DNA of 64,000 nt from Siphonodentalium dalli (lineage: Eukaryota > Mollusca > Scaphopoda > Gadilida > Siphonodentaliidae): the NCBI GenBank assembly GCA_032622095.1, contig CP136062.1, forward strand, positions 200,609,828-200,673,827. Direction: 5' to 3'. Shown here piece after piece: positions 15,345-64,000 of the stretch. The position numbers and the translations under genes are program-made. Each line of letters starts with the position of its first letter. Within the stretch, counting starts at the first letter, position 1. The notes beneath the pieces are model-generated. The model was given only the letters and a program-made list of their open reading frames with translations. It searched no databases and had not been told where the DNA came from.

Positions 15345-15480
15345 GGGCCTGTGAGGCAAGCCCTTCAACTGAACTATATGGATTATTTCTCCGGTCTTGT
15401 GTCAATCAGGAGAGTTAAAAAATTATTGCCGTTCCTACTCCGTTCACTCTATTCTCGGATTAGTCACCCATGAATGTGCC
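15345..15480. repeat. Degenerate copy of the DIRS-type terminal repeat
   Basis: CAACTGAACTATATGGATTA at 15366 and the following GGTCTTGTGTCAATCAGGAG ... ATTAGTCACCCATGAATG follow the inner part of the terminal repeat found at 48731-48918 and inverted at 53669-53855. No internal region is attached, so it is a truncated or solo copy. Confidence 0.6.
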
Positions 15481-21548: not shown

Positions 21549-21930
21549 TATGAATGGGCTGATAGGTTGTGGTTAAGGAGTCGATTATTTAGGGCATCAC
21601 TGTATGAATGGGCTGATAGGTTTAATCTCATTGATTATTTAGGGCATCACTGTATGAATGGGCTGATAGGTTTAATCTCATTGATTATTTAGGGCATCAC
21701 TGTATGAATGGGCTGATAGGTTTAATCTCATTGATTATTTAGGGATCACTGTATGAATGGGCTGATAGGTTTAATCTCATTGATTATTTAGGGCATCACT
21801 GTATGAATGGGCTGATAGGTTTAATCTCATTGATTATTTAGGGCATCACTGTATGAATGGGCTGATAGGTTTAATCTCATTGATTATTTAGGGCATCACT
21901 GTAGAAATAGGTTTAATCTCATTGATTTCT
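21517..21930. repeat. 50-54-bp tandem array grown from a MITE end
   Basis: Two 54-bp units containing GTGGTTAAGGAGTCGATTAT are followed by about six 50-bp units with GGGCATCACTGTATGAATGG and TTTAATCTCATTGATTATT. The units are nearly identical and each contains the terminal GGGCATCACTG of the preceding foldback MITE plus flanking host sequence. Confidence 0.85.
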
Positions 21931-33423: not shown

Positions 33424-33826
33424 CCCTTTACCCAACAAACCGGCCAAAACCGGCCAAAAACGGCCAAATAAAGCTGCAACAGCCTAAATTATCTTGGGGG
33501 TCTGTCTCAATAAAACCATACAAATATGGATATCATTGGAACCGGCTCATTGACCACATTGTGATGGTTACAGTTATGCCCTGTGCCAATGCATTCTCTT
33601 ATATATGCGAGTCGACCATAGGTCGCCTCTCATATATAAGAGAATGCATTGGCCTAAAAAAAATCTTTTTTTAACACTTTTTACCATTTTTATAATTTTT
33701 ATTTTTATTTTTATAATTTTTAATGTGTTAAGCCAATGCATTCTCTTATATATGCGAGGCGACCTATGGTCGACTCGCATATATAAGAGAATGCATTGGC
33801 ACAGGGCCGTTCTGTTGGGTAAAGGG
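33424..33826. mobile_element. Two-hairpin TTAA MITE, copy 2
   Basis: It is flanked by TTAA (33420-33423 and 33827-33830), with ends CCCTTTACCCAACA and TGTTGGGTAAAGGG. Hairpins lie at about 33584-33652 and 33733-33800. It has the same orientation as copy 1. It ends 20 bases before E4. Confidence 0.9.
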
Positions 33827-33850
33827 TTAAATAGTTTTACCCTTTTACAG

Positions 33851-34072
33851 GTTCCTGAGTGTGACGAGTTAGCACAAGAATCGGGACAGCTTATCCCTTG
33901 TCTTATTGAACACAAGAACAACATTACCGGCAATTGTAAAACATTCCTCAATAAAATGGCGACTATAGTATTCAGCGATTACCGACTGATATACAAGTTT
34001 GTCGACAAATGTGAACGCAGCATTAAAGAACACAAGTGTGGAAGGATGGCCGTAGATGATCCGGATCTAATG
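33851..34072 (+). CDS. GLG1: GLG1 exon E4
   Basis: The acceptor is CCTTTTACAG and the donor is ATG|GTATGT, phase 0 at both ends, 74 codons. The peptide starts VPECDELAQESGQLIPCL and contains HKNNITGNC and MATIVFSDYRLIYKFVDKC, one of the best conserved stretches of GLG1, then EHKCGRM. A TTAA-flanked MITE ends at 33830, twenty bases before the exon, so the branch-point region may be partly transposon sequence. Confidence 0.97.
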
Positions 34073-34666
34073 GTATGTTGTTTTTAAAAATAAAAACGCA
34101 GTCATGTTCTTCTGGAATACATGTAATTGCAGTATGTCACACCATGAGAAGAACGTCTTGCTGCCCCCTCTGATGTAATGATGACAAGAATTGTTTCTGC
34201 GACTGTCTGATGAAATCAACATTTGAATCTTCAAGGCAGCTCAGAAATTTATCATGACTAGTAATTATTCCCAATTGTATGGCCCCGTCATTATTGAGGG
34301 ATATGGCTTCAAATATCACTGTTAATTTGATGCAGGTGATTGCTGCGAAAATGGGTTGCACAGAATTGTTGCAATTGTCTCACTATCACTTTTACCTTTC
34401 CTCAATAATTGTTCAATCAAGTGCACCATAATTGCGATATTCAAAGAATAACAGCTGCCGATTGTTAGTTAACAACAAGGTGAATCTAATCATTTTCAGG
34501 ATGAACTACCCAATCGTAATCATATTTGTCACGTTGATCAAAATCATTCAGAAAATTATAATCGGGTTTGGTTGTTTACCAGGGCTTGTGTTATTTCTGT
34601 CCTTTAATCAGGATGACAAATTAAAATAAACACATCTTAATTTGACATAAACCCATGTAAAGAGTA

Positions 34667-35240: not shown

Positions 35241-35458
35241 CAATGATAGATTAAACAAATATAAGCCTCTTTGTACAGATAGATTTGCTCTTGGGTACAG
35301 TGAAAACTTTCACTATTGTGAAGTGTTGCTCCCTATTATTGGGATGGGGGGGGTATTTATTTATTGATTTATTAATAGGAGGTCATAAATTATATTTTGA
35401 AGACGTGGCATTCCCTGAGAAAGGATCTATGCCTAAATTGTCTCCATATTTTCTTCAG

Positions 35459-35704
35459 TTTGCACATTCTCAAGGGACAACATTATCCTGTTTGCAAAAC
35501 CATCTGATGAAGCTTGACGATGAATGTAAACTACAAGTTCTTCGCGTCGCCGAGCTGCAGTCTGATGATTATCACCTTGACCGTCCTTTGTACTATGCAT
35601 GCAGAGACGCTCGAGAAATATTGTGTCCACAAGTGGTTCCTGGACATGGGAAGATTTATAAGTGTCTCAAAAAGCATAAAACAGACCAAAAAATGGATGC
35701 TGCG
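35459..35704 (+). CDS. GLG1: GLG1 exon E5
   Basis: The acceptor is ATTTTCTTCAG and the donor is GCG|GTAAAC, phase 0 at both ends, 82 codons. The peptide starts FAHSQGTTLSCL (vertebrate AHSQG block) and continues LRVAELQSDDYHLDRPLYY, then ACRDAREILC and IYKCLKKHK. The spacing of cysteines agrees with a complete GLG1 repeat. Sequence upstream of the AG is open by chance but has no family match and was excluded. Confidence 0.97.
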
Positions 35705-35744
35705 GTAAACATTTTAGTTTTTCTTTTGAGAATGTAGATTTTAT

Positions 35745-43356: not shown

Positions 43357-43393
43357 TGTGAGATCCTCTATTTATGATATAAAAGGTCATTAA

Positions 43394-43775
43394 CCCTTTA
43401 CCCAACAGAACGGCCCTGTGCCAATGCATTCTCTTATATATGCGAGTCGACCATAGGTCGCCTCGCATATATAAGAGAATGCATTGGCTTAACACATTAA
43501 AAATTAAAAAATTGTTAAAGAATGTAAGAAAAAATGGTAAAAAGTGTTAAAAAAAGATTTTTTTTAGGCCAATGCATTCTCTTATATATGCGAGGCGACC
43601 TATGGTCGACTCGCATATATAAGAGAATGCATTGGCACAGGGCATAACTATAACCATCACAATGTGGTCAATGAGCCGGTTCCAATGATATCCATATTTG
43701 TATGGTTTTATTGAGACAGACCCAAGATATTGTAGGCTGTTGAAGCTTTATTTGGCCGGTTTGTTGGGTAAAGGG
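43394..43775. mobile_element. Two-hairpin TTAA MITE, copy 3 (inverted)
   Basis: TTAA flanks are at 43390-43393 and 43776-43779, with ends CCCTTTACCCAACA and TGTTGGGTAAAGGG. Hairpins lie at about 43421-43488 and 43569-43636. The long non-hairpin arm is on the right, opposite to copies 1 and 2. Confidence 0.9.
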
Positions 43776-44087
43776 TTAAAAAACCTGTGTTCTCAGACAA
43801 TTTTACTCCAAAAATAAGACGAGGTGCATACAAAAATGTTCTGGGTGTTCATAGCTACCTAAAAGGACTTTTGGTCGACCTGCCAGTGCATTACTCATTT
43901 GTTCTAGGTGTAGTGTTCGTTTACCCTGGCATTTGTGTTGACCTAGTTTGACACCCACGTACCTATAACGGTTACATTTAAAAACGAAATTACTGCATAT
44001 GGTGAAGTTTATATAATTTTTCATTCTGTTGTAATCCCAAGATTCAAATAAAAATATGATAGCCATGGAGTTTTAATCTATCTTTAA

Positions 44088-45543: not shown

Positions 45544-46155
45544 TTAAACTCAATATTGATCTGCAACTGGGGTAATAATGTGAAGCACTGAAGGCCCCTT
45601 ATAGTGGGATAAGCACTATATAATCATATTTATTATGCACCTGTTGTAAATCAGTCTGTGCAATTGTTTTTTTTTTTTTGTGGTTTCTGAGTGATAACTT
45701 TATCTTTTGTTTTTCGATCGACTCAAAATTGGCATGTGATGATGACATCTCCCTTTCTTCTCATAATAAGTCCCCATTCAAGATTGATATTGAATTTGTG
45801 CCCAAACTCTTCAGATGTCAGTTTTTGTTTATGTGAATCATTGTAAGCTCCAGCGGTAAATTTGCTTATCGATTATCTATTAGGATTAGCCAGTGCTCTG
45901 CTCTGTTCAATACCATGCTGCATGCTACACCATTTGGTTTCTACATTCACGTCAAAGAATAGTTTTTGGCACACAACATTGTTCTTCTCATTTACAAGTA
46001 ATTAAATCAGTAGAGTTAAGCTTCTGTGTTGCGTCACGAAACTAGAATCCAAATTAAAAAAAAATTCTTGCTGCTTATTGGTGTATAAAAATAGAGTATT
46101 AATTAAGTGAAGGAGACTCCCAGTTTCAATATTTACTCGATATTTGTTCCTTTAA

Positions 46156-46536
46156 CCCTTTACCCAACAGAAGGGCCCTGTGCCAATGCATTCTCTTATA
46201 TATGCGAGTCGACCATAGGTCGCCTCGCATATATAAGAGAATGCATTGGCTTAACACATTACAAATTATAAAATTGTTAAAGAATGTAAGAAAAAATGGT
46301 AAAAAGTGTTAAAAACAGATTTTTTTTAGGCCAATGCATTCTCTTATATATGCGAGGCGACCTATGGTCGACTCGCATATATAAGAGAATGCATTGGCAC
46401 AGGGCTAACTGTAACTATCACAATGTGGTCAAGGAGCCGGTTCCAATGATATCCATATTTGTATGGTTCTATTGAGACAGACCGAAGATATTTTAGGCTG
46501 TTGAAGCTTTATTTGGCCGGTTTGTTGGGTAAAGGG
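46156..46536. mobile_element. Two-hairpin TTAA MITE, copy 4
   Basis: TTAA flanks are at 46152-46155 and 46537-46540, with ends CCCTTTACCCAACAG and TGTTGGGTAAAGGG. Hairpins lie at about 46183-46250 and 46330-46397. Its orientation matches copies 3 and 5. Confidence 0.9.
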
Positions 46537-46637
46537 TTAAATCATGATATCAAGGTGTGGGTCCTGATATTGACGAGGATAAAATTGCACACAAAAAAAT
46601 AATTTCATCAGTTCTCACAAATTTTAATTTGTTATAG

Positions 46638-46928: not shown

Positions 46929-48182
46929 AACCATTTGAACCCTGGCTTTCCACAGATATCGACACCCATGACTCTGGGCTCCCAGCCATTTTATACCCTG
47001 TTTTAGATACACATTAGATGTTTGGTGTTGGTAATGTTCTAAAGGCGGCATGTATTCATGGTAAGCCATTAAAATTTTTCGGTGTAGGTTTTGCCAAGTC
47101 ATAACCCCTTAGTAACGGTTGGTGGACAACTATCCAGAATATAGAAAGAAACGCGCAAATGCAGATGAAACATCGTTAATTCCCTTTAGTTAATACACCA
47201 TGTTGTGAAATAAAAGTGACAAACACTCTACTTGCGTTGTAATTTGCTAAGGTGCTATGCGAACAGTTTTGTGGAAACATTTAACCCTTTGAGTGCCAGG
47301 TCTGATTTTTGTATCAAGCCATATACCCTGTGCCAATGCATTCTCTTATATATGCGAGTCGACCATAGGTCGCCTCGCATATATATATATATATAACAAT
47401 TGTTTTGTTTTTTTTAAATTTTTTACAATTTTAATATATTTTATTATATTCTTTAACAGACTTATTGTGTAGGTTTAGGGCCGATAATATCGGCCCCTGG
47501 CACTCAAAGGGTTAATTCCATTATAAAACCTATGGTATTTAGGTCCTATATTTAACATACATGATTTGATTACATGGAATCAAATAAGCAGACTCAGTTC
47601 GCATGGGATCATTTATAATCCCCACACGCGTTCGGGTTTCCCTCGCTCTTCCATAAGTTATATAGGCCTACCTTAATACCTATAATATAGGTGAATTTAT
47701 ATGCTAATAAGTACATTTTGTAATCTAATTGCTATGCTCATGCATTAATATAACAACCCCACACACCGAGTGACCGTTCCAAATTAGTCCACAAAGCTAG
47801 AATATGAGAGGATAATTTATACTATGGTATCATTTCACATAGACCTACATACCAGATACCCAATTACTATCAGAGCACAATACAATACTTGCTCAATTTG
47901 CGTGTACGTTCAATGTATGGTTTATATCATTTCTATATACTTTGCGCATGCGCAAATATACCTATCATAACTATAGATGTTGACTCTTCCATACACATGT
48001 TACAGACACCCTGAACATCGCATAAGTGCAGGACGGCTATTTAAGTCATTTTTGTTTACTATCTCGATGTTATACCAGTTACAAATATTGGTAATGAGCC
48101 AGGTGTCTGCAGCCCGATATTTCGGGCTACCGGGTTATTGTCAAATTCGCTTCAGCCCGAGCTACCGGGTTCAAAGGGTTGA
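46929..48182. mobile_element. Possible larger TTAA-type element (TTTGAACCC ends)
   Basis: The left TTAACCATTTGAACCCTGG and right CCGGGTTCAAAGGGTTGAA are inverted and resemble the CCCTTT tips of the TTAA families. The segment would contain the nested 47285-47511 element. The flanks are TTAA on the left and TTGAA on the right, so the call is tentative. Confidence 0.4.
47285..47511. mobile_element. TTAA element with GAGTGCCAGG ends and one hairpin
   Basis: TTAA flanks are at 47281-47284 and 47512-47515, with perfect ends CCCTTTGAGTGCCAGG and complement. It contains a half-decayed hairpin of the CATTCTCTTATATATGCGAG type, ending in an expanded (TA)n run, though its termini differ from the ACCCAACA family. 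Confidence 0.8.
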
Positions 48183-48204
48183 AGTGATATTATGTACTTA
48201 TTAA

Positions 48205-48494
48205 CCTTCATAGTATGACATGTGTTATTAACAAAGCACAGAACAGATAAAATCTTTACTATATGCCAAATATTAGCCAGTAATACAAGGTGATTTAGAA
48301 TAAAACAAACTCATCCATTCATCTGCTAGGAGGGGAAGGGACATCGGTTGAATTACGTTTTGTCTTTACGCTAGGAAATTGGATTGGTCGCACGACATTC
48401 GACATGTACATTGTCTAACAGATAATATAAGTGGTAGTTTGTTGAACATTTCCTAAGGGAACTACTCATCAATGAGTATTTATTAAAGAAAGGG
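48205..48494. mobile_element. Possible TTAA element with CCTAAGGGAACTACTC right end
   Basis: TTAA occurs at 48201 and 48495. The right side AACATTTCCTAAGGGAACTA with AAAGAAAGGG is shared with 59240-59463. The left tip CCTTCATAGTATG is only a weak match. The borders are tentative. Confidence 0.4.
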
Positions 48495-48714
48495 TTAAAA
48501 TAAATATCTCTTCTCATGTAATATTTGGATTTATTACATGCTTGTTCCCAGAAGTACAGTGTTATTGCTGTTCCATATTTACAAATACGTATGGAACGTA
48601 CGTTCCATACGCATCTCGTTGGCGTAAAATGACGTACATGACGTTCATCTCAACCATGAAACCAGAACTATAAAATAAAAGCATCATCACACATAACAAA
48701 ACACGCCCTCTATG

Positions 48715-48918
48715 TTTTTCCGCCAAGGAGAAGCCCTCAACTGAACTATATGGATTATTATCCTCGGCCTTGTGTTATCAGGAGGGTTAAAATTTATTGT
48801 CCGTCTATTGCCTACTCAGGTCAATCAGTGCTCGGGATTAGCTACGCATGGATGCGTCTCGTGTAACTCTCGCGTGATTCTCGCGTTGTAACAATCCAGC
48901 TAGTCAGTTTTTAATTCC
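48715..48918. repeat. Left inverted terminal repeat of the DIRS-type element
   Basis: The outer tip TTTTTCCGCCAAGGAGAAGC leads into the shared repeat, which ends near CTAGTCAGTTTTTAATT. It pairs with 53669-53855. Confidence 0.8.
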
Positions 48919-51234
48919 TCCTCCAGCTATCGGACGTGGTTAATTTTAAGGAAGTATTATTCTGTATTGCGCGTTATCAACTCAATATTTATTGTTGATA
49001 ACAACTTGCAATTTATCCGTTGCTTACCCAGTCTTTTACTAAAAAATTTACAAACTCGCAGAAACTCTTCGTTTCATTGTATGCGCGAATTCCGTGTTTT
49101 CTATCGACACATTTCGTCTACGAATTTGTGATTGAATTTGACAAAAACCCCGTTGGAATCACTTTGGCATATTCGCCATTGATGGCCATTTTGACTCAGA
49201 TGCACATCGTTTACTTATGGCCAACCTATATTGCATTATTGTGCAACATATACGGTGGCATGACTCGTCAAATTTCGGAATCCACGTGGTGCGGTATGCG
49301 GACATTCTATTTCCTGACATGGTCTCTTCGCCCCGTTCAGGTTATGTATACTGCCATATCATATATGCAACAGCTATGTTAGTGCGCAGAACGTTGTCCA
49401 GGACAGAAATATCTCCTTTGGCACTAATTTACATGAATAAATAACAAAGATAGAACTTGTTACCTGATGTAATTTCCTTTGCCTCAACTAATTGTATTTT
49501 GTAAGTTGACGTTGAGCAACTGGAACTTCATCGACGTTTGGGAAATAATTATCGCAGAACATCATTGTACATATTCATTATGTCCTTATCATTAATTGTG
49601 CTTAAGCGATTAATATTTGCAAATCTTAGCTAGCCCGAATGTCTTAACATGAGGGCTTGTATTTGGATACTTGGAACGTTGGCGCGGATGTTAGTGACTT
49701 CACAATATTTATTTGACAATCCTGACTCTGTTCTTGCGATTCCATTCACTTTCCATCATTGTATCAATGGAATAATAGTTAGAAACAAGTCGATTCTGTT
49801 CGTTATACATCTAGTATTATGTGACCTGTGTCAAATAATGCTGTAATACTATAATAGTCTCTTTCTTTACGTACATGTATAGTATGAGTTGACAGTGTCC
49901 GGTTGCTACGACTCGTGCAACTGGTTTGATTGGGGAATAGGATTCTCAGACACACGATTTGACAACAAGGATTTTCGTTTCTAGTTTACATTATCGAATG
50001 GCGATCTCCATCAAATCATAATCTGACTTTCTCTCGGCGACAATTATGTCCGTTTGTTTGCAATTACTTACTTACTTACAGGTTCCCCTGTTCCAAGACT
50101 GCAAAGGCCATGCAAGCGCAGTAGCCTGAACTTTCAGCTATAGTTTGCTTACCTATACAATGTTAATTCCGTCCGTGGTCAGAACTCTTGTTGCGAGCCT
50201 ACTGGCCTACTTGTGGCAAGTCGCCTTATCCGATGTGACCTGGCATGAACTGTTATCCTCAGACATTAGTGTATCGATACATTCAACATTCATTGGTCCA
50301 TTAATCAGGACCAATATGGTATCAGTGCCTCATCGCCACATAACCGGTCAAATGGTGAGCATGACACATGTATGGCCAGCCGTAATAGTTCCATACCAAT
50401 GGTATCAGTGCCTTAACTGCTCAATGACATAAGAACTGGCTATGTCAATATGGTGACAATTTTTTCACCAATACCGACATACTTCTGCGCTTTCAATCCA
50501 TGAATAGTAACGGCGAACTACTATGCATATATATTGTCACGTGCTCCAGATGCATTGCCAATAGCCTTTCCCACTGAGCCCATCACTTGGCTCTCAACCT
50601 TCTATTTCCACATATCGAAAATATCAAATGTGAAATAGCCTTCACTCACGTATAAAGCACAGTTACATAACATGCATTTATATTGCGCAGGGCCGCTGCC
50701 ACTATAATTTTCAACAGAGACCAACACATGGCTCTTTTCTTTCTATTGCCTCATATCCAATTGATTATCGGGCAAATAACAAAAAGGACAGCATTTGTAT
50801 TGTCACACAAATTAAGTGCGTTTACATGAACAGCATTTAGATTTATATTGCGCACGACCACGGCAGGCCTGCGTATTGGAGGCACACGACGGTTCGGTTC
50901 ACATGACGGTTGCGAAATCTAGGTTGCGCCAAGGTTGTGTGAGGCTCTCGCAATATTGATTATAACTGTTTGTGTAACTTATGGGTACCTAAGGACAACC
51001 AGACAGCCGACACATACTACTATGTTACGGCTTGCGCATATTTTGCATTCCGCAGACCTGCCAGTGCCAATTTCAGAAGAGTCCAAAACATATCTCTTCT
51101 CCTTCTATTACTAAATATCCATATGATTATGTGGTGAATAGAATACCTCAATGACTAACAAAAATGACAGCTTTTGTATCATCACACATATACAGCGCCG
51201 TTCCGCAAGAAGCCTCTATTTCGTGTATGACCAC

Positions 51235-53165
51235 TGCCCAGTACCAGTGACTGGCGGGGTGCTAATATCGTTGATTCGGAAAACCAATCTTCATGGGCGC
51301 ACGCCTCAGCACCTGAGCCTTAGGGTGGGGAAGACTCGTCATGTGCCGCTGACAGCGCACCAGCCAACCAGCCTTCAGTTCTTCCCAGATGAAAATGCAG
51401 CTCAAGCTCTCATTTTCTCTCACAATTCAGAAGACGGATGTAATTGCATCCGTAATATAATCGTTCGTTGTGTTTCTCTCAAATTAAATGTCTTTGTGGG
51501 TTAGACCTCAATACATGCATGTTTAGTTGCACTTTCACATTCCCATACTTCAACTGCGATGGGACCGGTTTTTAAATATACCTCCAATAGTTTAATATTG
51601 AATCAACGGTTACTGTAACCATGCACATTTTGTCAAGAGGGAGAGTGCAAAGTTTAATGCTCGTGAATTAGAGAATTACAAGTGCATACGGGTGCGAGTA
51701 CAATTGCTCCTGTCATCTGGGAGGGACTGAGACTTCTGACTCTTCCCCACGGTCCATGGCCCACTCCATTACGAGAGTGGGTCTTGTCCCCCTGGAATCA
51801 TTCTCCCTCGGGATATGTCCAGGCCTGCTCTACCTTCGGAGGACTTTCCGTACGCGTATAAAACATTCTCCTCACCGTAAGCAAGGGCACCGCGAAAACT
51901 GTTCTTGCACAGGAGAAATCGGTTCTCATCGTCCTCTTCGCCGAGAAGTGACAGTATCTTACCTGCAGTTTAATTTCTAGCAGGTAAGACCACGTGGCCA
52001 CATAATGAACTGAATTTACCTTATTAACATTATTTTGCATTAACTAACAAAATGTTTTGTGTATTACGCTTGCTAATAACTAACAGAATGTCTTGTCTTG
52101 CTTATAGTCGACGAGATTCGACTTTGATGGCCACACTCCGTGCGGGTTGCTCAAGAAATAAACGCGGCAATATGCGGTATTGTCATTGTTGGATGAGGGC
52201 CCGTTGGTCCATGGTTAAACAATTTGAGCAAACTTACCAGTCTTACCTCGGGCAGGACCAGTTCACCCCCCCCCTGGTCATGCATCAGCAGACTTTGGGT
52301 GGCAGCGTGCAGTTCTCGGAGATTCGGGCAACCAATCCTCCAGGACACCCGCACACTCGCCTTTGGAGGCTGTTCTGGGTGGGGAAGTCTCGATGTCCGG
52401 TGCCGCTCAATGCGCTCCAGCCAAAAGGCCTTCTGACGCTTCCCCACGGCGCTGTGGCCCACCCCATTACGAGGCTCGGTCTTGTCCCCCTGGAAACGTC
52501 ATCCCACGTGATACGTCCAGGCCTGCTCCTCTGCCGTCATGGGATCCTAGTGGTATGTCATCGACGTTTATTCCAGCTTGTCTGGACCACCTGCATTCGG
52601 GAGATTCGGTGGGGGGGTTTTCTCTGGTCAAATGGATCCTTCTAATTTTATCTTTTTGCTGACCTTCTGGCATTGGGGTGGGCCAAAGCACCTTAACTTC
52701 AACTGCGAGGGCATCTATACCTCGTTCGAGCCATTCCCCGAGTGGGCTTCCCTTTAGTACCTTATCTCAACCTGATGCAGGGTGTTCTGTTGCTGTGGTC
52801 GATACTGACATGCTTCCTATACTTCTCATGGCGTCTGATGGCTTTGACGACGATGGGCAAGAATCACGGGATTCTGTCGTTCCTAAGGAACTCGCTTTGC
52901 GTATGGAAACGACATGGGTCGATCTCTTGTACAAAACTTCATCACAGATATGTGTCAACTGACTTACACAAACTTGCACAACTGTACCAGTCTTTACCTC
53001 GGGATGAACCAGTTCGAGCCCCATGGTCCTGCACCAGCAGTCCGTGGCAGGCGGGGTGCCGTTATCAGAGATTTGGGCAACCAATCCTCCAGGACAATCG
53101 CACCCGAGCCTTTGGAGGCTGTTCTGTGTGGGGACAACTCGATGTCGCATACTGTCAATAGCGCT
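51235..53165 (+). pseudogene. GC-rich repeated module inside the DIRS-type element (decayed coding DNA?)
   Basis: A module of about 130 bp containing GGGCAACCAATCCTCCAGGA and GCCTTTGGAGGCTGTTCTG occurs at about 52293-52440 and 53043-53160, and in more decayed form at 51241-51400. A second module with CCATTACGAGGCTCGGTCTT and TCTTGTCCCCCTGG occurs at about 51736-51835 and 52440-52540. GC content is well above the surroundings. Frames shift between copies. The block may descend from the RT/RNase H region of the element, but no motif is firm enough to name. Confidence 0.35.
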
Positions 53166-53506
53166 TTCTATTTTGGAAGATATTTACAGAAATCACTATC
53201 ATCACTTGAAAACGAGAAGAAGACGCAGTGAAGTCAGCAGCAGAAGAAGAAGTCTCTACTTGCTCGGTTTCTAGCTGGCGCGTATGGTGTGGCACTGCCT
53301 GGGACGTTTCTTCCTAAAACCAGGGGGGGGGCAGGTACAAGCTTGAGCAATACTGGAATCTGAATTTATGAGCTCTTTCACATAACATATCAAGGCTGAT
53401 TCATGACTAAATCACATTTACATGAAATATGTTTTCGGAAGAGTACATTCCCGTCAAACTGGGATATTAAATTTATTGCTCGTTGCCTCCTCCTGGGCTT
53501 GCATTC

Positions 53507-53592
53507 TAATCCATATAGTTCAGTTGAGGGCTTCTCCTTGGCGGAAAAATATAATTTTTTAAAGTAAAATAACTTTTTCCTTAAGGGAAGCC
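53507..53592. repeat. Internal complementary region of the DIRS-type element
   Basis: It is the complement of the left tip followed directly by the complement of the right tip, meeting at about 53549/53550. In DIRS elements this region is thought to template circularisation of the cDNA. Confidence 0.8.
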
Positions 53593-53668
53593 CGAACTAT
53601 CAGAGATCCCTCCCATGGCGGTGCCATTCCCAACCCCGCGACTCGCAAATCCTATGATTCGGTCGGAA

Positions 53669-53893
53669 AATTAAAAACTGACTAGCTGGATTGTTACAAC
53701 GCGAGAATCACTCGAGAGTTACACGAGACGCATCCATGCGTAGCTAATCCCGAGCACTGAATGACCTGAGTAGGCAATAGACGGACAATAAATTTTAACC
53801 CTCCTGATAACACAAGGCCGAGGATAATAATCCATATAGTTCAGTTTCTGGCTTCCCTTAAGGAATAAGTAATTTTACTTTAAAAATTATATG
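53669..53893. repeat. Right inverted terminal repeat of the DIRS-type element
   Basis: It is the reverse complement of the left repeat from CTGACTAGCTGG to CCATATAGTTCAGTTT. It is then followed by its own tip, GGCTTCCCTTAAGGAATAAG, and by AATTTTACTTTAAAAATT. Confidence 0.8.
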
Positions 53894-53959
53894 TCTAACT
53901 AAACCTTCTAAGCCTGTATTTTTTAATGCACAGGTTCTAGGACGCGAAGCGTGTAATAA

Positions 53960-54095
53960 ACACAGAACGACACGATGTGTAAATGGGTTTGTCGATACAG
54001 CACTCGTGCTGTCATGGAAGGATAGAACTCGAGGCGCAAGCGACAGCACTCGTGCCGTATTGACAAACCCATTTACACATCGTGTCGTTCTGTGT
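53960..54095. repeat. Foldback sequence with ACACAGAACGACACGATGTG arms
   Basis: Arms of about 50 bp (53960-54013 and 54043-54095) are nearly perfect inverted copies containing GTAAATGGGTTTGTC and CAGCACTCGTGC. It begins about 65 bases after the DIRS-type element. Confidence 0.75.
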
Positions 54096-54521
54096 ATTTG
54101 TTTTAGTTCTTACTTCTAGAATTCTGGAGTGTAATGAATGTACAGATGATTTTATGGACCAGTTAGGGATTGATCATAAAATGCTAGTTCCTTTTGGACA
54201 GTTATCACTTTTTTTATATTACCTAAGTGAATAATAATTTAACACAATACGCATGTTTCAACAAATATCATGGATTTGTCCCAACAATGTGTTAATGATG
54301 GGCATATTCAAAGATATTCTAATCAGTGGTCCATTTCACTGTCAACATTGGATCATGCTGGTGATATCGACAACAGATCAAATCATCATCCAAACCAACT
54401 TTAGGAATTAGTTTGTGGACTATACTGTTGGTGGAGTATACTGTAATAGTTGTTTTATTTCTTTCTTCCATTTTACTTTGAAGTGAGTCAGAAAATCATC
54501 TCATACGTTATTTATTTGCAG

Positions 54522-54668
54522 AAAATTTCCAAATCTTGCCGCCACGAAGTTACCAGAGTTATGAGACAAAGGGCCAAGAGCGTAGAGCTGTTACCTGAGA
54601 TTGAATCGCCATGCATCGCCGATCTAGGAAAGTTTTGTTCAGCAAACAATGACTTTAACAAAAATGAG
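54522..54668 (+). CDS. GLG1: GLG1 exon E11
   Basis: The acceptor is TTTATTTGCAG and the donor is GAG|GTATGT, phase 0 at both ends, 49 codons. The peptide has SCRHEVTRVMRQRAKSVEL and PCIADLGKFCSANN, matching ECRAEVQRILHQRAMDVKL and KCLIDLGKWCSEK of vertebrates. The preceding intron is the longest in the window (7,724 bp) and holds the DIRS-type element. Confidence 0.96.
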
Positions 54669-54696
54669 GTATGTGTTGGATATATAACTTTCATTA

Positions 54697-55377
54697 GGCC
54701 AAAAAAAAAAAAGGTGTTGGTTCTCAGGCCCCGCCGCATTGAATAAAAAGGGCCGCATTAGGCCTTTTTATTGCATTGCCTGATGTTACGACAAAAAAAC
54801 TTACGATTTTTTTTTAATTTTTTTTTTTAAATATGACCGTAGCAGATATGTGTTGAATAATAGTGTGCATTGAGCTCTAACATGTAATGTGTTAAAAAGT
54901 GACTTGCAGGCTTACAACATGTAGATGACTAGATGTAGAAGTAGATGACTACAATTAAGAAAATGATAAGCTGACCCTCATGCTCTTCTTATAATTAGTC
55001 ATTGTGAACTAACTTACACTAATTGTAACTTTATACAATTGAAAGGCACAGAACTAAATTCAGGATCACATATTAGAATGGGGAGGTATCAGTTTTTAGA
55101 CAACAATAACAGTAGTTAATGTCAGGGGCATTATATAATGTTAGGTAATCCCAGTCATACACTGGTAGTACAATGTCATTTTTATATAAGATTAAATGAG
55201 TTTATATGCATAACAGTTCCCTCTACATTTCTGGTTATTACTAGACAGAGGAAGGTATCTTTGTCCATGCTTACTATGCGCAGAAAAAAAATAAAAAAAT
55301 AAAAACAAAACCCTCCCTCCCTCATTGATTTGAAGAAAAAAATTGCCCGAGAACCAAAACTCTTTTTTTTTTTGGCC
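54697..55377. mobile_element. Harbinger-like MITE, 681 bp
   Basis: Inverted ends start GGCCAAAAAAAAAAA and continue with GTTGGTTCTCAGGC, matched by GCCCGAGAACCAAAAC at the right. TTA flanks both sides (54694-54696 and 55378-55380). A 3-bp TTA duplication with GGCC ends fits PIF/Harbinger. It starts 28 bases after the E11 donor. Confidence 0.65.
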
Positions 55378-55804
55378 TTACCAGACATGATTTACGGCAA
55401 CCCTTATGTTCATAATAATAACAATCGATCCATGTATATAGTGCATTACATTATACTCTGAATTAATTCAATGCACTTGCTCATATTCTTGTGTATATTT
55501 TTTCAGCAACTCCAGCAAGACATGATGGGGTTGTGTCACTATAAAATTTATTTTAAAATGTTTTATCCTGCAACAAAGTTGAAGGCTTGGCTGTCCATGT
55601 CCACCCATCCATCGATGCAACATTGTCTTGGGTTTTATTAGTTGTCTGTTATTAGTAGTCTGATTGTCCTCTGCTTTTTAACCTGAACAACCCTCTAAAT
55701 GAATTAACAGACCATTTCAATGTATATCTTTATTAATGAATGAGAGAATCCAATTGGTATAGTAAGGGTTAAACATTGTTTTTTTTTTTTTTTTTTTATC
55801 TCAG

Positions 55805-55954
55805 GAGATTGAGTGTTTAGAAGAAAACTATGATCAACTTACTGAAGGATGCAGAAACGCTGTTGCTGATTTTATTGAATTAGAGGACGAGGATCTCAAA
55901 TTAGACCATGCTCTAATGAAGGCATGTGATCCCGTCATCAGACAACTCTGTGAT
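55805..55954 (+). CDS. GLG1: GLG1 exon E12
   Basis: The acceptor is a long T tract ending ATCTCAG and the donor is GAT|GTAAGT, phase 0 at both ends, 50 codons. The peptide EIECLEENYDQLTEGC is followed by LEDEDLKLDHALMKAC and DPVIRQLC, matching ELECLQDHLDDLVVEC and LMRACEPIIQNFC. The upstream tract has about 19 consecutive T residues. A TTAACTCTTTC motif resembling a TTAA-element tip lies nine bases after the donor. Confidence 0.96.
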
Positions 55955-56406
55955 GTAAGTTACTTAACTCTTTCATTGCCAGGCTAAATTTACACCTAAA
56001 CTGATTTTTGTATATGAAATGTATGATACAGTATGAATTTCCTACTTATGAAATAACTTTTCAAATATCAAGGACTTGTATGTGGGTGATAAGCATAATA
56101 CATGCTGATGAATATTTCTTGGAAAAAAAAAATTCACCGTAATCAAGGGGCATAACTCCTTGTCTACCAATGGGGGAAAAACTCCAGAAATTTAATTTTT
56201 TCTGTAATAATTAAATTGAAAAATGGCCCAAATTCTACTATAATGATTTTCTGAGACACAGAACAAATTTGGTGAGGATCTGATAACTTTCTCCTTTATA
56301 TCTTCACAATTTAAAAACTTGTGAGAGCAATTTAGGGTCTAGTCCTGATATCAGGACCATGTGTGAGGAGGGCCAATTGGGGATCCTGTAACTCCCAGAT
56401 TTATTA

Positions 56407-57143
56407 TCGTAAATTTTGGTGTATAAGTCGCGTGCGTGTATAAGATGCACCCCCCCACTTTTCAACCCCAAATCCTGCCTTTTGTGAAATACCTTTGTAT
56501 AAGACGCACCCATTTTTAGATGCTGGAATTTCAGAAAACTTCTGTGCATGGTAAGTATTGTACTGGTAAGTATTGAGAGCAAGTATTCACACATCACATT
56601 TGGGAGGAGAAGAAATGGAGAAAGTTATTTACGTTAGAATGATTTATTTAAACACACAATATAACATAACAATTCATAGCACAGCACAATTTATCAAAAC
56701 GAACGACATTTGCAATAGACAAACAATAAAAATATGGAATGGGAACTGAATGATTTAATACACGGAATGCACAAAACGGACATTTCAACAACAATAACAT
56801 TCATTCACTTTCGTCATCACTTTCGTCGTTATCAATAAACAATTTAAACCACTCAGCATCTTGTTGACGGTGCGTTCTGGTGGCATGTCGAAAAACATCG
56901 GCACCTCGTCCATGTTGCCGATTTGATCGAGGATGTAATCGTATCTTTTTCGTTGCTTGATTACGAAGCGTTGAAATTCGAATAGCCGGTCCTATTGAGA
57001 CTCGGCTTACTGTTGTTTTAGGATAATGGCCTTGTTAATTAAGATTTCACCCCGATTTTGAGTTACCGTTGTATAAGGCGCACCAATATTCTGGGCTATA
57101 TATTCAGGTAAAAAAGATGCGACTTATACACCAAAATTTACGG
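56407..57143. mobile_element. pogo/Tigger-type element, internally deleted, 737 bp
   Basis: Inverted ends CGTAAATTTTGGTGTATAAG and the complement are flanked by TA (56405-56406 and 57144-57145). Subterminal TATAAGACGCACCC occurs on both sides. It still carries a minus-strand transposase fragment. Confidence 0.85.
56811..56990 (-). pseudogene. pogo/Tigger (DDE_1) transposase remnant
   Basis: Read on the minus strand from about 56990, one frame gives LFEFQRFVIKQRKRYDYILD followed by QIGNMDEVPMFFDMPPERTV. NMDE(T/V)P..FDMP is the signature around the first catalytic aspartate of Tigger/pogo DDE_1 transposases. A frame change follows, then WFKLFIDNDESDDESE and a stop at 56811, resembling the acidic tail of such proteins. 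The middle of the catalytic domain is deleted, so it is inactive. Confidence 0.8.
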
Positions 57144-57951
57144 TAATGGTTCCGTGATGACCTGCCCCAGTGACAACAAGATATTGCAAAATTATAATAT
57201 GTACATTTTATGATTATATATCTAACTACAAGTTTGTCATCCTTGTGCTATAAATAAAATACCAAATGACACATATACCTGTGGTCTAAACTATCACTGA
57301 GGCAAGTTATTTGTCACCTGTGTGGGTTATTTCTCTCCATTTGTGTTTCAATTGAGCAAAAAGGGTCAGTTTTGACTGGCAACACAATCAAAAGTGCACG
57401 TATTGTAATATAAGGTTGTCAAAAATCATGTTTAAATAAATGAATGCATTGATAAAATGTAAAAATGTTGTCTCCTTTTTTCTTCTGGCAACGGCGGCCA
57501 TTTTGGATCATTTGCTGCATGACTTCCGTTACAAACTTTTTTATATTATAGCTTCAAACTGCGCATTCCGAAGACAGCTGTTCTTTCATTGTGGCTATGT
57601 TATTTACTAAATTACTGACAATGATGTTTTTGCCAATAGTGATTTGTTCATGTGTCTACGACAAAAATTATTTCTGAGTAAAGAATTTATTTTACTCTCC
57701 ATAACCAATGGATATTGAATTGATAGATGATAATTAGAAAATCTGATGGATCCGGCCAAAGTTTTTACCCTTGATGCTGTTTGTTGTTGAACTTGATAGG
57801 ATTTATTTTATTTATTTGAAACATTTTGTATAAGCCTAATGCATGTCAGTTTTGTGATGTAGTGTAGATAATAATTATTGGGATGATGAAGTGTGAGTTG
57901 TCGTATTTGACAGGCTGCCTTCACATAAGACAATGCGTTAAGAGGCATTGG

Positions 57952-58112
57952 ATTTCAGGATTTAGTCGGAAATATGGCTTGTTGCCATTCATCGGAAAGC
58001 TCTCCCCGAGAGCTTTCCGATGAATGGCAACAAGCCATATTCCGACTAAATCCTGAAAAGTTACACATAATTCTGCTGAGGTTAAGAAGTCGATTACTTA
58101 GAGCATTACAGT
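57952..58112. mobile_element. Foldback pogo-like MITE, degenerate copy
   Basis: The palindrome TTTCAGGATTTAGTCGGAAA, GGCTTGTTGCCATTCATCGG, AAAGCTCTC and its complement is centred near 58006. The right side GTTAAGAAGTCGATTACTTA and GCATTACAGTA is mutated. The left terminus is missing. Confidence 0.7.
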
Positions 58113-58482
58113 AGCTCGCCATGAAAATTACGGAACTTTGAAGTTGCCAACATTGTTCGGCTGTCAAATTATAAACTGAGGTGTCATCCTACAGGTACAT
58201 GTACCTGTCATTGAACTAATCTTATGGCCCACCGTCCACCAGATATTGAATGTGTTTGGACAGTTATACAATAGAGTAAGATGAACATTCTAATAATGCG
58301 TTGATTGGCATTACACATGCAAGCATGAATATAAAATGCAATAATTCTCTTTATGTCTATGGAAATTAACAAGATTCTTATGGACGTATGATTTTTTTCA
58401 ACTTTCTGTCAACACTGTGCAGTGTTGCCTATGGGAAATTATTTGGTTCCATGTAATCTATAATGCAATTTTCTAACTGCAG

Positions 58483-58593
58483 CCTGAGGAGGAAGATACA
58501 GATGCATTCGACATTCTGGAATGTCTCATTGAGCATAAGCATCACGACGCCATGGGTGATAAGTGTGAATGTGCTGTTGAACATCATCAAATA
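58483..58593 (+). CDS. GLG1: GLG1 exon E13
   Basis: The acceptor is TTCTAACTGCAG and the donor is ATA|GTGAGT, phase 0 at both ends, 37 codons. The peptide starts PEEEDTDAF and contains DILECLIEHKHHDAMGDKC, matching DLMECLIQNKHQKDMNEKC of vertebrates. An extra cysteine (KCECAVEHH) replaces the KCAIGVTHF of vertebrates, giving an odd cysteine here. Confidence 0.94.
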
Positions 58594-59239
58594 GTGAGTT
58601 CGCATATTTATTCTATTAGGCCACTGAACAAAGTCAATTTCCCCGTTATTTGATCTGAACCAAAGTTGGTACGTGTGTTTCTCCAAAAATTACAGGCCAT
58701 GTTCAAATATAGGTTCCGCCCAATTATTCTTACAGCTACAGCCCATTTTCAACTTAGAATTTACCCAAACACATTGCATATTAAATATTAAACACATTGC
58801 AAATATGGCTCATATGCATATTGTAGCTTGCCCACACATTTTGTCTTGTTGTGGCTCTTTAAAATGATAGTGCCTTAACACATCAAATTGCATCCTTAAA
58901 TTTCTTTGTGTGTGGTGTGAAGCCTCCGCTGAGGTGATCAGAATGGAATGGCAAAAATCATGCCAAAATTGTTATTTTTATAAAATTTATATCGAAATAG
59001 ACACAAAGCAGCATCATTATTATAAAACGAATTGCATGCAGTGACTATTGTCTGCTGAATCATTGCCGTAGTGAATTTACACTTCGGTGTAATTCAAACA
59101 TTGTGTTCTCTGAAAATGCACAATCGATGTGGTTAGAATTTGTTATAATCTTTGTTAATTGTTACATTGTCCAGTGGAGATAGTGTTTGGATACTAACTT
59201 TTCGGTTTTACTCAACCACAACCCGTAATATGTCATTAA

Positions 59240-59463
59240 CCCTTTCTATACTGAATGGATTCTCGCATTCAGCTATAAAAGTTTCTATTGGAATAGTCTA
59301 TTATTCATTTGGATGGATGTTTACTGTTTAGTTAGCAAAAGCAGATTGGTGGAAAATGTTCTCATAATAAGTTCAACAAATGACTTTTGGCCGTTTGTTG
59401 AAATTATTATGTGAACATTTCCTAAGGGAAATACTTGTCAATGAGCATTTAGTACAGAAAGGG
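59240..59463. mobile_element. TTAA-type MITE with CTATACTGAATG ends
   Basis: The left TTAA at 59236-59239 is followed by CCCTTTCTATACTGAATG. The right side CATTTAGTACAGAAAGGG is followed by TTAT (a mutated TTAA). The CCTAAGGGAAATACTTGTCA segment is shared with 45120-45160 and 48430-48490. Confidence 0.65.
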
Positions 59464-59911
59464 TTATATTCCATCTAATCTAAAAAGTGTTCACTCATTT
59501 GATAGTTCTATCAAGTGTCACCTTATCACAGGCTACTATTGACACAATCCGATTCCGCTTTCCATGTCTCTTCAATGTTTTGTAACTCAAAAATTTGAAG
59601 TGGCAAGTCAGTTTTCTGTTGATATCTAGTTAAGTGTTGGTATCTATATATTAGTATACAGCTTATCAGTTAGTTGTGTTAATCACACATAGCATGTGAT
59701 ATTCCCATTGTTCAAAAATAAGGCAAAGAGCACAAAACTGCACAAAATGTGCACTCCCTTCTCAATGTAAACAAATAATTGAAAACAAATTCATTTTCTG
59801 GCCTTTATGGTGCATAGTATGGACAAAGTAAACTTATTATATATATAATATATCTTACCATACCACCATATAACATCGTGTGCATTCAAAGTTGTTCCAT
59901 GGGCTTCATTT

Positions 59912-60800
59912 TTGTCCCCCGACGTTTCCGTCGGAGGACTATAGAAATGACCCTCGTCCGTCCGTCCGTCGTACCGTCCGTCCGTCCGTGTGTCCGTGCG
60001 TCCGAGATCGGGTACCTTCATGGTGTAATCAACTCCTCCTACAGTTTTAAACGTAGAGATTTGAAACTCTGGGATATTGTTCCTAACATGTTGGTGATTT
60101 GCAACATCTATATAGCTAATCAAAAATATAATTTTTTCCATATTTTTGGGGGGGTATTCGACATAGAAAATTTGGAACATTTTTGCCTTTTGGATGAGAT
60201 TGGGTACCTTCATGGTGTAATCAACTCCTCCTACAGTTTTAAATGTAGAGATTTGAAACTCTGGGATATTGTTCCTAACATGTTGGTGATTTGCAACATC
60301 TATATAGCTAATAAAAAATATCATTTTTTCCATATTTTTGGGGGGTTTTCGACTTAGAAAATTTGGAACATTTTTGCCTTTTGGATGAGATTGGGTACCT
60401 TCATGGTGTAATCAACTCCTCCTACAGTTTTACATGTAGAGATTTGAAACTCTGGGATATTGTTCCTAACATGTTGGTGATTTGCAACATCTATATAGCT
60501 AATAAAAAATATCATTTTTTCCATATTTTTGGGGGGTTTTCGACTTAGAAAATTTGGAACATTTTTGCCTTTTGGATGAGATTGGGTACCTTCATGGTGT
60601 AATCAACTCCTCCTACAGTTTTAAATGTAGAGATTTGAAACTCTGGGATATTGTTCCTAACATGTTGGTGATTTGCAACATCTATATAGCTAATATTTTT
60701 TTTATGGAGTTATTAACCCTTTTCAACTTAGAAAATTTCAACATTTTTTTTTAATTTCTTTAACAAAGCGGCATCGACTTGCCATGTTGTCGGGGGACAC
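59912..60800. repeat. GTCCCCCGAC-ended element with 191-bp tandem array
   Basis: The ends GTCCCCCGACGTTTCCGTCG and GTTGTCGGGGGAC are inverted. After a GTCCGTCCGTCGTACCGTCC stretch come four units of 190-191 bp starting near 60006, 60198, 60387 and 60578, each with GGGTACCTTCATGGTGTAAT and CCTAACATGTTGGTGATTTG. The units are more than 95% alike by eye. ORFs of 159-180 codons exist on both strands because the unit is stop-free in some frames. Confidence 0.8.
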
Positions 60801-61459
60801 TGTGGTCTGCTGACCTTTTATTTGTTTTATATCTGTTGTAAATTGTGATTTACATGATACAAAATACAATGCCCCGCCCTCGCAAACAATCAGCACAAAA
60901 CTTCCCAGTTTTCTGTCTCAAATCTCACATGTTTATGTGGAAGATAACAATTATCTGAGTTAATATTTAGATATAAATAATATTTCTGCGATTAATACAC
61001 ATGACGCGAGTGATTAAATCACATAATTTGAATGTGAGGCAACATTTTTTACAAGTTTCTCATGAACATATCCTAATTTTTTTTAAGCACCCAGTAAAAT
61101 TGTGAAGATTAATATCATTGCTAATTGTCTTGCAATCCAATCATTGTTGCTTTGTTCTTGAGACGAAAAAACCATTCTAACTGATACGCCAAAAATCAGA
61201 TTCTTTAACTTGTCAGTTCTTGAGAAAGAGAACAAGAAAATCAAAAACAGTGTAATCTGTGCTATCGAACCTGACGATATAATACCGAACTGGACATCAA
61301 AAGAGGAACCGAATTGTATCGATTGCAACCTGAGCTAATTATCTGATTATTCAATAGCCTATCTATTAATCTATCTAATTATCATATCTCTTTATCATTA
61401 TTATATGATATCAAGTTGATACTGGTATATTGTCTAATTTATATTATAATTCATTTCAG
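60801..61459. other. Intron 14 DNA, unassigned
   Basis: AT-rich sequence with no repeat or frame recognised. The 61549-62030 intron is likewise plain. Confidence 0.4.
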
Positions 61460-61548
61460 ACACAATTAAAAGACTTCAAATTCAGTCATAAATTTAAAGA
61501 AAACTGTAAAAATCCCAAAGAAAAGTACTGTAAAGAGGCAAAAACAAG
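61460..61548 (+). CDS. GLG1: GLG1 exon E14
   Basis: The acceptor is AATTCATTTCAG and the donor is ACAAG|GTAATA. It enters in phase 0 and leaves in phase 2. The peptide TQLKDFKFSHKFKENC is followed by NPKEKYCKEAK, matching LVQMKDFRFSYKFKMAC and EDVLKLCPNIKKK. The region is lysine-rich, as in vertebrates. Confidence 0.93.
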
Positions 61549-62030
61549 GTAATAATAATTAATGTAATCACTGAAGTATTATCCATTTCTATGTCTTATA
61601 GTACCCACTTCAGTTTTGAGCAATGGGGGATGCCACAATATCTGGCATCGAAATAGTTTTAGAACAGCAAGATAAAGAAATTAACATTCGGAGAAAACCA
61701 AAACTCAACATTTTTATAAATGGCGTGATTCTACATTTATTATTATAGAATTGTACACATACATGTACTTGTATGTGTGTACCAGGGTGCAGAGTTTCCA
61801 TTCAATTTAAGTTATTAGTCAAGAGTTTTGAGAGTTGCACATTTTCAAGGATGAGGGCTTGGAGGAGGTCTACATCTAGACATCCTTATTTCAATGTCAA
61901 CAGTAATGACGGCATTTCAGATTCCAAATTTTCAATATATTTTTAAAAATAGCCTTCATTGATCCTGAGTATTAACTTGTACACAAAAAGTTGCTTAAGT
62001 GGCAAAAGGCTGACTAATGGTTTCTTGCAG

Positions 62031-62145
62031 GTCAGAGATTGTGACGTGTTTGAGTGAACATATAAGAAACGATACTTTGTTCGGGAAGCCACAAAGAATC
62101 TCCAACAAATGCAGGAATCAAGTTAAATTTGATCTGCTGCAAAGG
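62031..62145 (+). CDS. GLG1: GLG1 exon E15 (last exon in window)
   Basis: The acceptor is GTTTCTTGCAG and the donor is AGG|GTTAGT. It enters in phase 2 and leaves in phase 0. The peptide SEIVTCLSEHIRNDTLF is followed by ISNKCRNQVKFDLLQR, matching DVVICLSTTVRNDTL and SLKCRRQLRVEEL. The TTAA of a two-hairpin MITE starts 12 bases after the donor. The next exon must begin in phase 0 to the right of the window, because nothing GLG1-like follows before 64000. Confidence 0.95.
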
Positions 62146-62161
62146 GTTAGTAATCTGTTAA

Positions 62162-62551
62162 CCCTTTACCCAACAGAAGGGCCCTGTGCCAATGCATTCT
62201 CTTATATATGCGAGTCGACCATAGGTCGCCTCGCATATATAAGAGAATGCATTGGCTTAACACATTAAAAATTATAAAATTGTTAAAGAATGTAAGAAAA
62301 AATGGTAAAAAGTGTTAAATTTTTTTTTTTTTAGGCCTATGCATTCTCTTATATATGCGAGGCGACCTATGGTCGACTCGCATATATAAGAGAATGCATT
62401 GGCACAGGGCATAACTGTAACTATCACAATGTGGTCAAGGAGCCGGTTCCAATGATATCCATATTTGTATGGTTCTATTGAGACAGACCGAAGATATTTT
62501 AGGCTGTTGAAGCTTTATTTGGCCGGTTTTGACGGTTTGTTGGGTAAAGGG
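62162..62551. mobile_element. Two-hairpin TTAA MITE, copy 5
   Basis: TTAA flanks are at 62158-62161 and 62552-62555, with ends CCCTTTACCCAACAG and TGTTGGGTAAAGGG. Hairpins lie at about 62188-62255 and 62336-62402. It begins 12 bases after the E15 splice donor. Confidence 0.9.
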
Positions 62552-62697
62552 TTAATAAAACAAATTTGTATTTCGCAATGCATAGGAATAATTTCCAAAC
62601 GTCATTGACCTGTGATCTCCTAATTTAAATAGAACCAATCGGAAGCTGTGTTTGTAATTGCCTTTTTAAAAGAGACTGGACTATGTCTTGCAATGAG

Positions 62698-62815
62698 CTG
62701 TTACATCACAACCAATGAAATAGCGCCCAGTCTGAGACATGACCAATGAAATAGCGCCCAGTCTGAGACATGACCAATGAAATAGCGCCCAGTCTGGGAC
62801 ATGACCAATGGAATG
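62698..62815. repeat. Short tandem repeat, 36-bp unit
   Basis: Three units containing CCAATGAAATAGCGCCCAGT and CTGAGACATGA occur in a row, followed by a partial fourth. Confidence 0.85.
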
Positions 62816-62926
62816 AAGGCAATCCCATCAATACAGAAATGGAATTTGTATTCGGAATTCTAGAGACGTAAATATGATAAGTCTATCTTCGGCCTTTCAA
62901 AGCGACTGGATTGATCCATAACCAGG

Positions 62927-63340
62927 TGCAAGTCTGAATTTAATATGTCTGACAATTGCAGAATGAGGTCCCCAGAGGGTGAAATTAACCATCTGGAGAC
63001 CTCATTCTGTTCAGGCCTTAACTGCTATGGCAGACTTCGGATCAGATTGAAGTTCCTCAGTTGAAGTTTGTGATGTTCACCCCTTAGTCAGCTCCATTAT
63101 ACAGTTTATCTTCTGCAAATTCAGGGATATAGAAACTTAACAGTAGGGAACCAAGTTCCTAAAAACAATGTTGAATTGAGACTATAGATACTTCCCAGAA
63201 GATGAGGCCTAATCAGAATGAGTTCCCCAGAGGGTGAATTTGATGATGCTTGCCCACTGTGTGGGGTAGCATCACTAAATTTACCCTCTGAGGACCTCAT
63301 TCTGCAAAAGTCAGACACACTAAATTTAGGCTTTACCAGG
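62927..63340. mobile_element. Foldback MITE with TGTCTGACAATTGCAGAATG ends, copy 2
   Basis: It has the same parts as 41821-42267 but in reverse order: GGTCCCCAGAGGGTGAA, a shortened left hairpin, GATAGAAACTT-type interior, and a right hairpin around GATGCTTGCCCACTGTG. No target duplication is evident. Confidence 0.7.
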
Positions 63341-63349
63341 TGTGTTCTA

Positions 63350-64000
63350 CAGTGAAACCTCTCTAAACCGAACACCCTTCGGACCGGCCCTTCTGTTCGG
63401 TTTAGAGAGGTGTTCGGTTTACAGAAAATCGCAAAACCATCGGAATATATTGCCGCCGTCAGTAAGAGTTATCGAGACCCGAACACCTCATTACTGATTC
63501 CTTAAACTTTATTCAATAAACTACAAAATAAAACTTAAATTGCAATAGATAAACATGCTATAATAAGAAATAAATATATGTATAGATAAACCACGAAACA
63601 CGGTTACGATACATTTTACGGTGATTCACGGTTTTGGAAAATGTAGATTTCAACTCTGAGCTATTGTTTTCCCCGACGGCTCATTAATTTTGATAAGTTA
63701 ATTTAATAAAACTGTGATGGTAACAATAAACCACCCTACTGTACTTTTAGCAAATTAGTGTTTAGTTTGGACAATTGTTGTAAAAACAAAGAGTCCATTC
63801 CAGCACAATAGCTGATGTAAAAACAATGTGTCACTGCTCTAATTACCTGTGAAGTCACCATTGTTCAATCAGTGTGTGATATAAGCAAACATGTATCTAT
63901 CTGTATCTGCATGTATCTGAAGGTGGTGCAGTGCAGTAACTAATTCTTGTTTAGGCACATCTAATTAGACACCTGTTGTTTTAATTCGTTTCAAAGCTTT
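63350..64000. mobile_element. Left end of a pogo/Tigger-like element
   Basis: CAGTGAAACCTCTCTAAACC follows TA at 63348-63349. GTTCGGTTTAGAGAGGTG is inverted 40 bases later, as is usual for this class. No right end was found by 64000, so only the start is firm. Confidence 0.55.

Follow-up and report, generated by a model that had tools for sequence, protein, structure and literature searches.

A probable non-autonomous DIRS-type retrotransposon with preserved termini and no recognized genes in Siphonodentalium dalli

Introduction

In the published comparison of DIRS1-like retrotransposons, such as Dictyostelium DIRS-1, the termini are described as inverted terminal repeats (ITRs) with a divergent part of 9 to 36 bp and a conserved part of 31 to 304 bp, a right extension of 9 to 75 bp and a two-part internal complementary region (ICR) (PMC3266345). 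At the boundary between the divergent and conserved parts, both ITRs and both ICRs have a stretch of 10 nt or more in common, and NTT ends, usual and not universal, are listed for 23 of the 28 published elements (PMC3266345). In the replication model for DIRS elements, the ICR serves as the template from which the missing ends are restored, which allows a circle to form. This model is not fully proven experimentally, and an ICR-less element has been suggested as a test of it (PMC5633606).

Truncated or degenerate relatives have also been described. SIRE of trypanosomes is a truncated, non-autonomous relative of the tyrosine-recombinase retrotransposon VIPER and is made from terminal sequences; its mobilization by autonomous VIPER has been raised as one possibility (PMC6681497). 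In Xenopus tropicalis, 36 of the 75 DIRS families in Repbase have lost their ORFs and/or their repeat structure (PMC9210276). Phrases such as "non-autonomous DIRS" had no occurrence among the 5.39 million papers of an open-access library. Here, we describe positions 48715 to 53894 of a 64-kb stretch of S. dalli DNA (the window, meaning the whole stretch analyzed), which we consider with good confidence to be a non-autonomous DIRS-type retrotransposon, known from this one locus, that has kept its cis-acting termini and lacks genes of its own.

Bounds and terminal repeats

The element is 5,180 bp long, and in the best fit it begins with TTT and ends with TGT. Its left terminus (48715 to 48916, plus strand) consists of a divergent ITR of 24 nt, which starts with TTT (48715 to 48738), and a conserved ITR of 178 nt (48739 to 48916). 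The right ITR (53669 to 53868, minus strand) comprises a conserved part at 53669 to 53846 and a divergent part at 53847 to 53868. It is followed by a right extension (rE) of 26 nt (53869 to 53894, minus strand), whose last bases are TGT and which is complementary only to the right half of the ICR (rICR), as is the terminal extension of DIRS1-like elements.

A repeat search of the window recovered inverted arms of 187 nt (48730 to 48916 and 53669 to 53855) that are 97% complementary. Pairwise alignment of the two conserved ITR parts showed 176 of 178 positions to be identical, while nothing at the left end corresponded to the last 26 nt on the right; the matching outermost ends of a DNA transposon with long terminal inverted repeats were thus not found. 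Likewise, the terminal repeats are inverted and do not form the split direct repeats (A1-B1-A2-B2) of the PAT/Ngaro/VIPER-like plan, and the left end belonged to none of the 14 direct-repeat families (at least 18 nt) of the window. A 21-base core of the ITR occurred four times in the window with up to three mismatches, compared with no occurrence in 100 dinucleotide-preserving shuffles. The sequence AACTGAACTATATGGATTA is present at the divergent/conserved boundary in both ITRs and in the left half of the ICR (lICR); the rICR shows only GAACTAT. The initial annotation had reported ITRs of about 190 bp with unlike outer tips, which these alignments bear out. It had placed the element at 48714 to 53893; the element itself stands, and its exact ends are better fitted by 48715 and 53894.

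Internal complementary region and likeness to DIRS1-like elements

The ICR (90 bp; 53507 to 53596, plus strand) lies near the 3' end and is complementary to both outer tips, as in DIRS1-like elements. The lICR (53507 to 53549) is the exact complement of the left tip at 48715 to 48757 (43/43), and such a match within 5 kb is beyond chance even without simulation. The rICR (53547 to 53596) is complementary to the right tip at 43 of 46 positions outside the junction, with one inserted base. When the whole segment was compared with the complement of the right tip fused to the left tip, 86 of 89 positions agreed; the three mismatches and the inserted base were all confined to the right half. The initial annotation had recognized an internal segment uniting the complements of both tips. 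Its presence is confirmed, and its right limit moves from 53592 to 53596.

Both halves of the ICR have the trinucleotide AAA in common. Among tip fusions with overlaps of 0 to 6 bases, an overlap of 3 scored best; overlaps of 0 to 3 were equal in identities (86), and an exact 1-bp overlap also fits. In the 3-bp reading, the ends are TTT at 48715 and TGT at 53894 and the junction is AAA. A 3-bp circular junction common to the ICR halves and the ends is consistent with this arrangement rather than proven.

The lengths of the divergent ITR, conserved ITR and rE (24, 178 and 26 bp) are within the published DIRS1-like range, and the ICR parts measure 43 and 50 nt with 3 in common (PMC3266345). In Table 3 of the same source, AcDIRS2 has 26/136/28 bp, an ICR of 39-60 and, as here, the start TTT, the end TGT and the junction AAA, while GaDIRS2 (21/144/26 bp, ICR 38-57) is close to these sizes (PMC3266345). 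The start TTT fits the NTT motif and the end TGT does not, an identical pair being found in AcDIRS2 (PMC3266345). Overall, the locus resembles DIRS1-like elements in its two-part ITRs, its right extension, a 3' ICR that joins the tips, its total length and, in the 3-bp reading, a junction trinucleotide (PMC3266345). The circular-junction logic of DIRS elements, which had been proposed for this locus at the outset, is supported by this fit to the published terminus anatomy.

Coding potential of the interior

The interior (48917 to 53506; 4.6 kb) contains no recognized protein domain, and its longest stop-to-stop ORF is 205 aa. For the published DIRS1-like elements, regions encoding GAG, RT/RNase H/methyltransferase and recombinase are reported, whereas the element here is without a recognized gene (PMC3266345). 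Six-frame translation of 48914 to 53507, with stops read as X, yielded no match to reverse transcriptase (RT), RNase H, methyltransferase or recombinase/integrase families in Pfam at an E value of ≤5. Six-frame scans of the whole window at an E value of ≤0.05 were likewise negative for RT, RNase H, methyltransferase and recombinase. The earlier statement that no known domain was to be seen in the interior therefore holds in the six-frame Pfam scan at an E value of ≤5.

When the six interior ORFs were each compared alone with Pfam, a single match was obtained (E, 0.84), and the 205-aa ORF had no match among PDB sequences at an E value of ≤5. Neither a tRNA scan nor an Rfam scan at gathering scores detected anything in the window, and the interior had no match in the rest of the window at an E value of ≤0.01. 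The sole interior match at an E value of ≤5 was to Nod_GRP (E, 0.014; 0.019 in a second scan), which at 15.6 bits is below the 25-bit cutoff of that family and was rejected. Matches to FERM_C1_MyoVII (E, 0.0014) and Beta_helix (E, 0.032) in frames of 47601 to 63998 were also disbelieved; both were absent from the interior-frame scan.

As a control, the same scans recovered the PF00839 exons of a host gene, with an E value of 2.1e-21 in the frame that holds two stretches and a best value of 6.9e-07 in another scan. One host exon with a 57-aa domain, scanned alone, was still found after simulated decay of 1% (2/2) and 5% (2/2). At 17.9 kb, the weakest of the candidate host exons went undetected in the frame scan (E, 0.078 when scanned alone), so short fragments may escape such a scan.

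The GC content of the interior is 0.44, reaching 0.50 in 51700 to 53506, which is above most of the window. Shuffling produced an ORF of at least 205 aa in 5 of 300 trials for the interior and in 4 of 300 for 51700 to 53506. The 3-base periodicity was reached by 16 of 300 shuffles for 51700 to 53506 and by 42 of 300 for the 205-aa ORF itself, in a test of low power (two host exon stretches were reached by 85/300 and 72/300 shuffles). On these sequence statistics, 51700 to 53506 might contain an old coding remnant.

Repeat modules and age of the termini

The interior is made up of diverged repeats. A first set (50556 to 51198, plus strand) comprises 50556 to 50619, 50696 to 50819 and 51058 to 51198, which are 66 to 81% identical depending on the stretch aligned. 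The second set (51239 to 53165, plus strand) consists of module A, at 51252 to 51376, 52228 to 52416 and 52976 to 53165, and module B, at 51733 to 51830 and 52430 to 52528. An insert of approximately 356 bp (51377 to 51732) splits one module copy and is missing from the other. It has inverted arms of 18 nt that are 89% complementary near its ends (51375 to 51392 and 51713 to 51730), and it is possibly a nested MITE.

Five module pairs differed at 32/185, 15/98, 29/123, 18/78 and 26/117 aligned sites, or 15 to 24% with indels uncounted. By codon position, the differences in the same order were 7/12/13, 7/3/5, 10/9/10, 4/7/7 and 9/8/9, which shows no clear bias. Amino-acid constraint was not significant in any of 30 strand/frame tests of five ungapped module pairs (lowest share of null placements not exceeding the observed value, 0.090). 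In contrast, the terminus pairs differed at 2/178, 0/43 and 3/46 positions (0 to 7%) plus one indel, or 5/267 (approximately 2%) when pooled. The internal modules, with no coding constraint detected, thus differ about 10 times more than the terminus pairs, and the initial description of termini far better preserved than the interior is borne out.

As the DIRS model has the ends rebuilt at every retrotransposition, the differences between the ITRs and between the tips and the ICR date the last move. A terminus difference of approximately 2% would leave too little time for the loss of RT and recombinase genes. On the basis of these comparisons, the parent copy most likely had no genes before the last move and probably borrowed its enzymes from elsewhere (in trans), and the interior had probably been non-coding well before that move. 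The weak points of this age argument are gene conversion between the ITR arms and the possibility that the modules were captured when already diverged.

Genomic setting and a related ITR

Matches to the cysteine-rich repeat PF00839 on the plus strand at approximately 35519 to 35689 and at 54534 to 54647 flank the element, which probably lies within an intron of this host gene. Provided that the 3' end of the element is the one marked by the ICR, its orientation relative to the gene is probably sense. We take the host gene to resemble Golgi apparatus protein 1 (GLG1).

A solitary ITR of the left type, from a related family, is present at 15358 to 15476 (plus strand). Its identity with the left ITR of the element is 78%, and it shares the 21-base ITR core exactly. 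Neither a mate nor an ICR of its own was found for it in the window, where its matches beyond the element were only above an E value of 0.04. This copy suggests that related DIRS-type elements have been active in this genome and that the family has other members. The exact 22-base ITR core had no match in collections of viral contigs and genome contigs. A viral contig (L001) with a gapped ITR pattern was rejected as a relative and attributed to chance, as its best match was 16 bases (E, 0.043) and it had no inverted repeat at an E value of ≤1e-3.

Alternative explanations

An autonomous DIRS element that was inserted with its genes and later decayed in place would also explain a complete DIRS anatomy. 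Such an origin would agree with a length of 5,180 bp, near the mean of 5,160 bp for the 28 published DIRS1-like elements (PMC3266345), and former coding content is hinted at by the 205-aa ORF and by the weak periodicity of 51700 to 53506. However, the small differences between the terminus pairs suggest too little time to erase RT and recombinase genes, and neither gene was detected in the interior even though the 57-aa host domain remains detectable after simulated decay. The divergence and absent codon bias of the internal copies also argue against decay in place, which we regard as unlikely.

Somewhat less likely still is a class II DNA transposon of the foldback or long-TIR type, or a derivative of one, in which an internal copy of the ends arose by chance or by recombination. 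The long inverted repeats and the modular interior with no recognized genes would suit such an element, as would the 5-bp direct repeat TATGT that overlaps both ends (48711 to 48715 and 53890 to 53894). However, a right end whose outer 26 nt are unmatched at the left is unsuited to a transposase that needs matching ends, and the ICR unites both tips in the manner of a circle junction. Direct repeats of at least 4 bp (TATGT has 5) were found within 6 bp of a boundary pair in 2432 of 5000 random placements, and the TATGT repeat is weak evidence for a target-site duplication. The interior could instead be host or repeat DNA that entered, or was captured by, a pair of DIRS ends on a single occasion and has not been mobilized together with them as a unit. 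Its elevated GC content, its lack of a match elsewhere in the window and the nested insertion within it would fit such a mosaic. However, the termini and the ICR agree at 93 to 100% around the 4.6-kb interior, as expected from a single retrotransposition, and we consider a mosaic very improbable and the least likely of the three.

Classification, proposed life cycle and implications

As no RT/RNase H, methyltransferase or tyrosine recombinase genes, which characterize DIRS1-like elements, were found, the element is not filed as an autonomous DIRS1-like member. Its ITRs, extension and ICR conform to the DIRS plan, and we class it as a probable non-autonomous DIRS derivative. The non-autonomous reading with mobilization in trans, which the initial annotation had raised, is strengthened by the young termini, the domain-less interior and the old, unbiased divergence of the modules. 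SIRE is likewise non-autonomous, but at approximately 0.4 kb it corresponds to split direct repeats, whereas the element here is 5.2 kb and follows the ITR/ICR plan (PMC6681497). The Xenopus DIRS-like families are reported in their source as degenerate, rather than as gene-less elements whose ICR is intact and whose termini are young, as here (PMC9210276).

By analogy with the DIRS model in the literature, RT and tyrosine recombinase would be provided in trans by an autonomous relative. The missing ends would then be templated by the ICR, which would join the right and left tips over a short junction to give a circle. A short site of matching sequence (here TTT against TGT) would receive this circle through the action of the recombinase, with no target duplication. 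The RNA intermediate, the circle, the trans-acting enzymes and the integration chemistry are all inferred from that model.

The young termini and the old interior could also reflect a long-lived gene-less DIRS lineage that is many times older than this copy and has spread in trans throughout, with only the ITRs, rE and ICR maintained while the interior drifted; we give this about even chances. If true, such a lineage would be a natural experiment on which cis sequences suffice for the DIRS circular cycle. A gene-less element in which nothing but the ITRs, extension and ICR has been retained would reveal, by natural selection, the cis requirements of that cycle. Parasite-of-a-parasite relations exist among other retrotransposons, and this relation would thereby extend to DIRS elements of the ITR/ICR plan.

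Related and probably nested sequences

A lone left-type inverted terminal repeat (ITR) at 15358-15476 shares 78% identity with 48731-48854 of the left ITR of the element, the probable non-autonomous DIRS-type retrotransposon, and sequence comparison in the window showed a 21-base core that is the same in both. A search within the 64-kb window found neither a partner ITR nor an internal complementary region of its own. Judged by its sequence, 15358-15476 is an ITR from a related DIRS family.

Inside the element, a candidate insertion at 51377-51732, with 18-nt inverted arms close to both ends, interrupts one of the diverged internal modules, while the paralogous module lacks it; this segment is probably a nested insertion.

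Surrounding repeats and an apparent host gene

A foldback (53960-54095; 54-nt arms, 93% complementary; 28-nt loop) starts approximately 65 bp past the element's right end. A repeat of ~390 bp is present in at least five copies (3784-4185, 33447-33830, 43390-43780, 46152-46541, and 62156-62555), which are 92 to 98% alike across ten pairs among the matches listed. Also among these matches, the copies at 46152 and 62156 match their own reverse complement and appear MITE-like. Tandem arrays occupy 5090-5878 and 29076-29806 (units of ~164 bp, related to each other by sequence comparison in the window), 11325-12287 (~174 bp), 21529-21903 (~50 bp), and 60004-60695 (~191 bp).

Exon-like open reading frames matching the cysteine-rich repeat family PF00839 lie on the forward strand at 17730-18101 (E = 0.078), 33554-34084 (E = 1.5e-10), 35255-35734 (E = 1.8e-18), and 54450-54743 (E = 2.4e-07). 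They apparently belong to a GLG1-like gene extending across the window.
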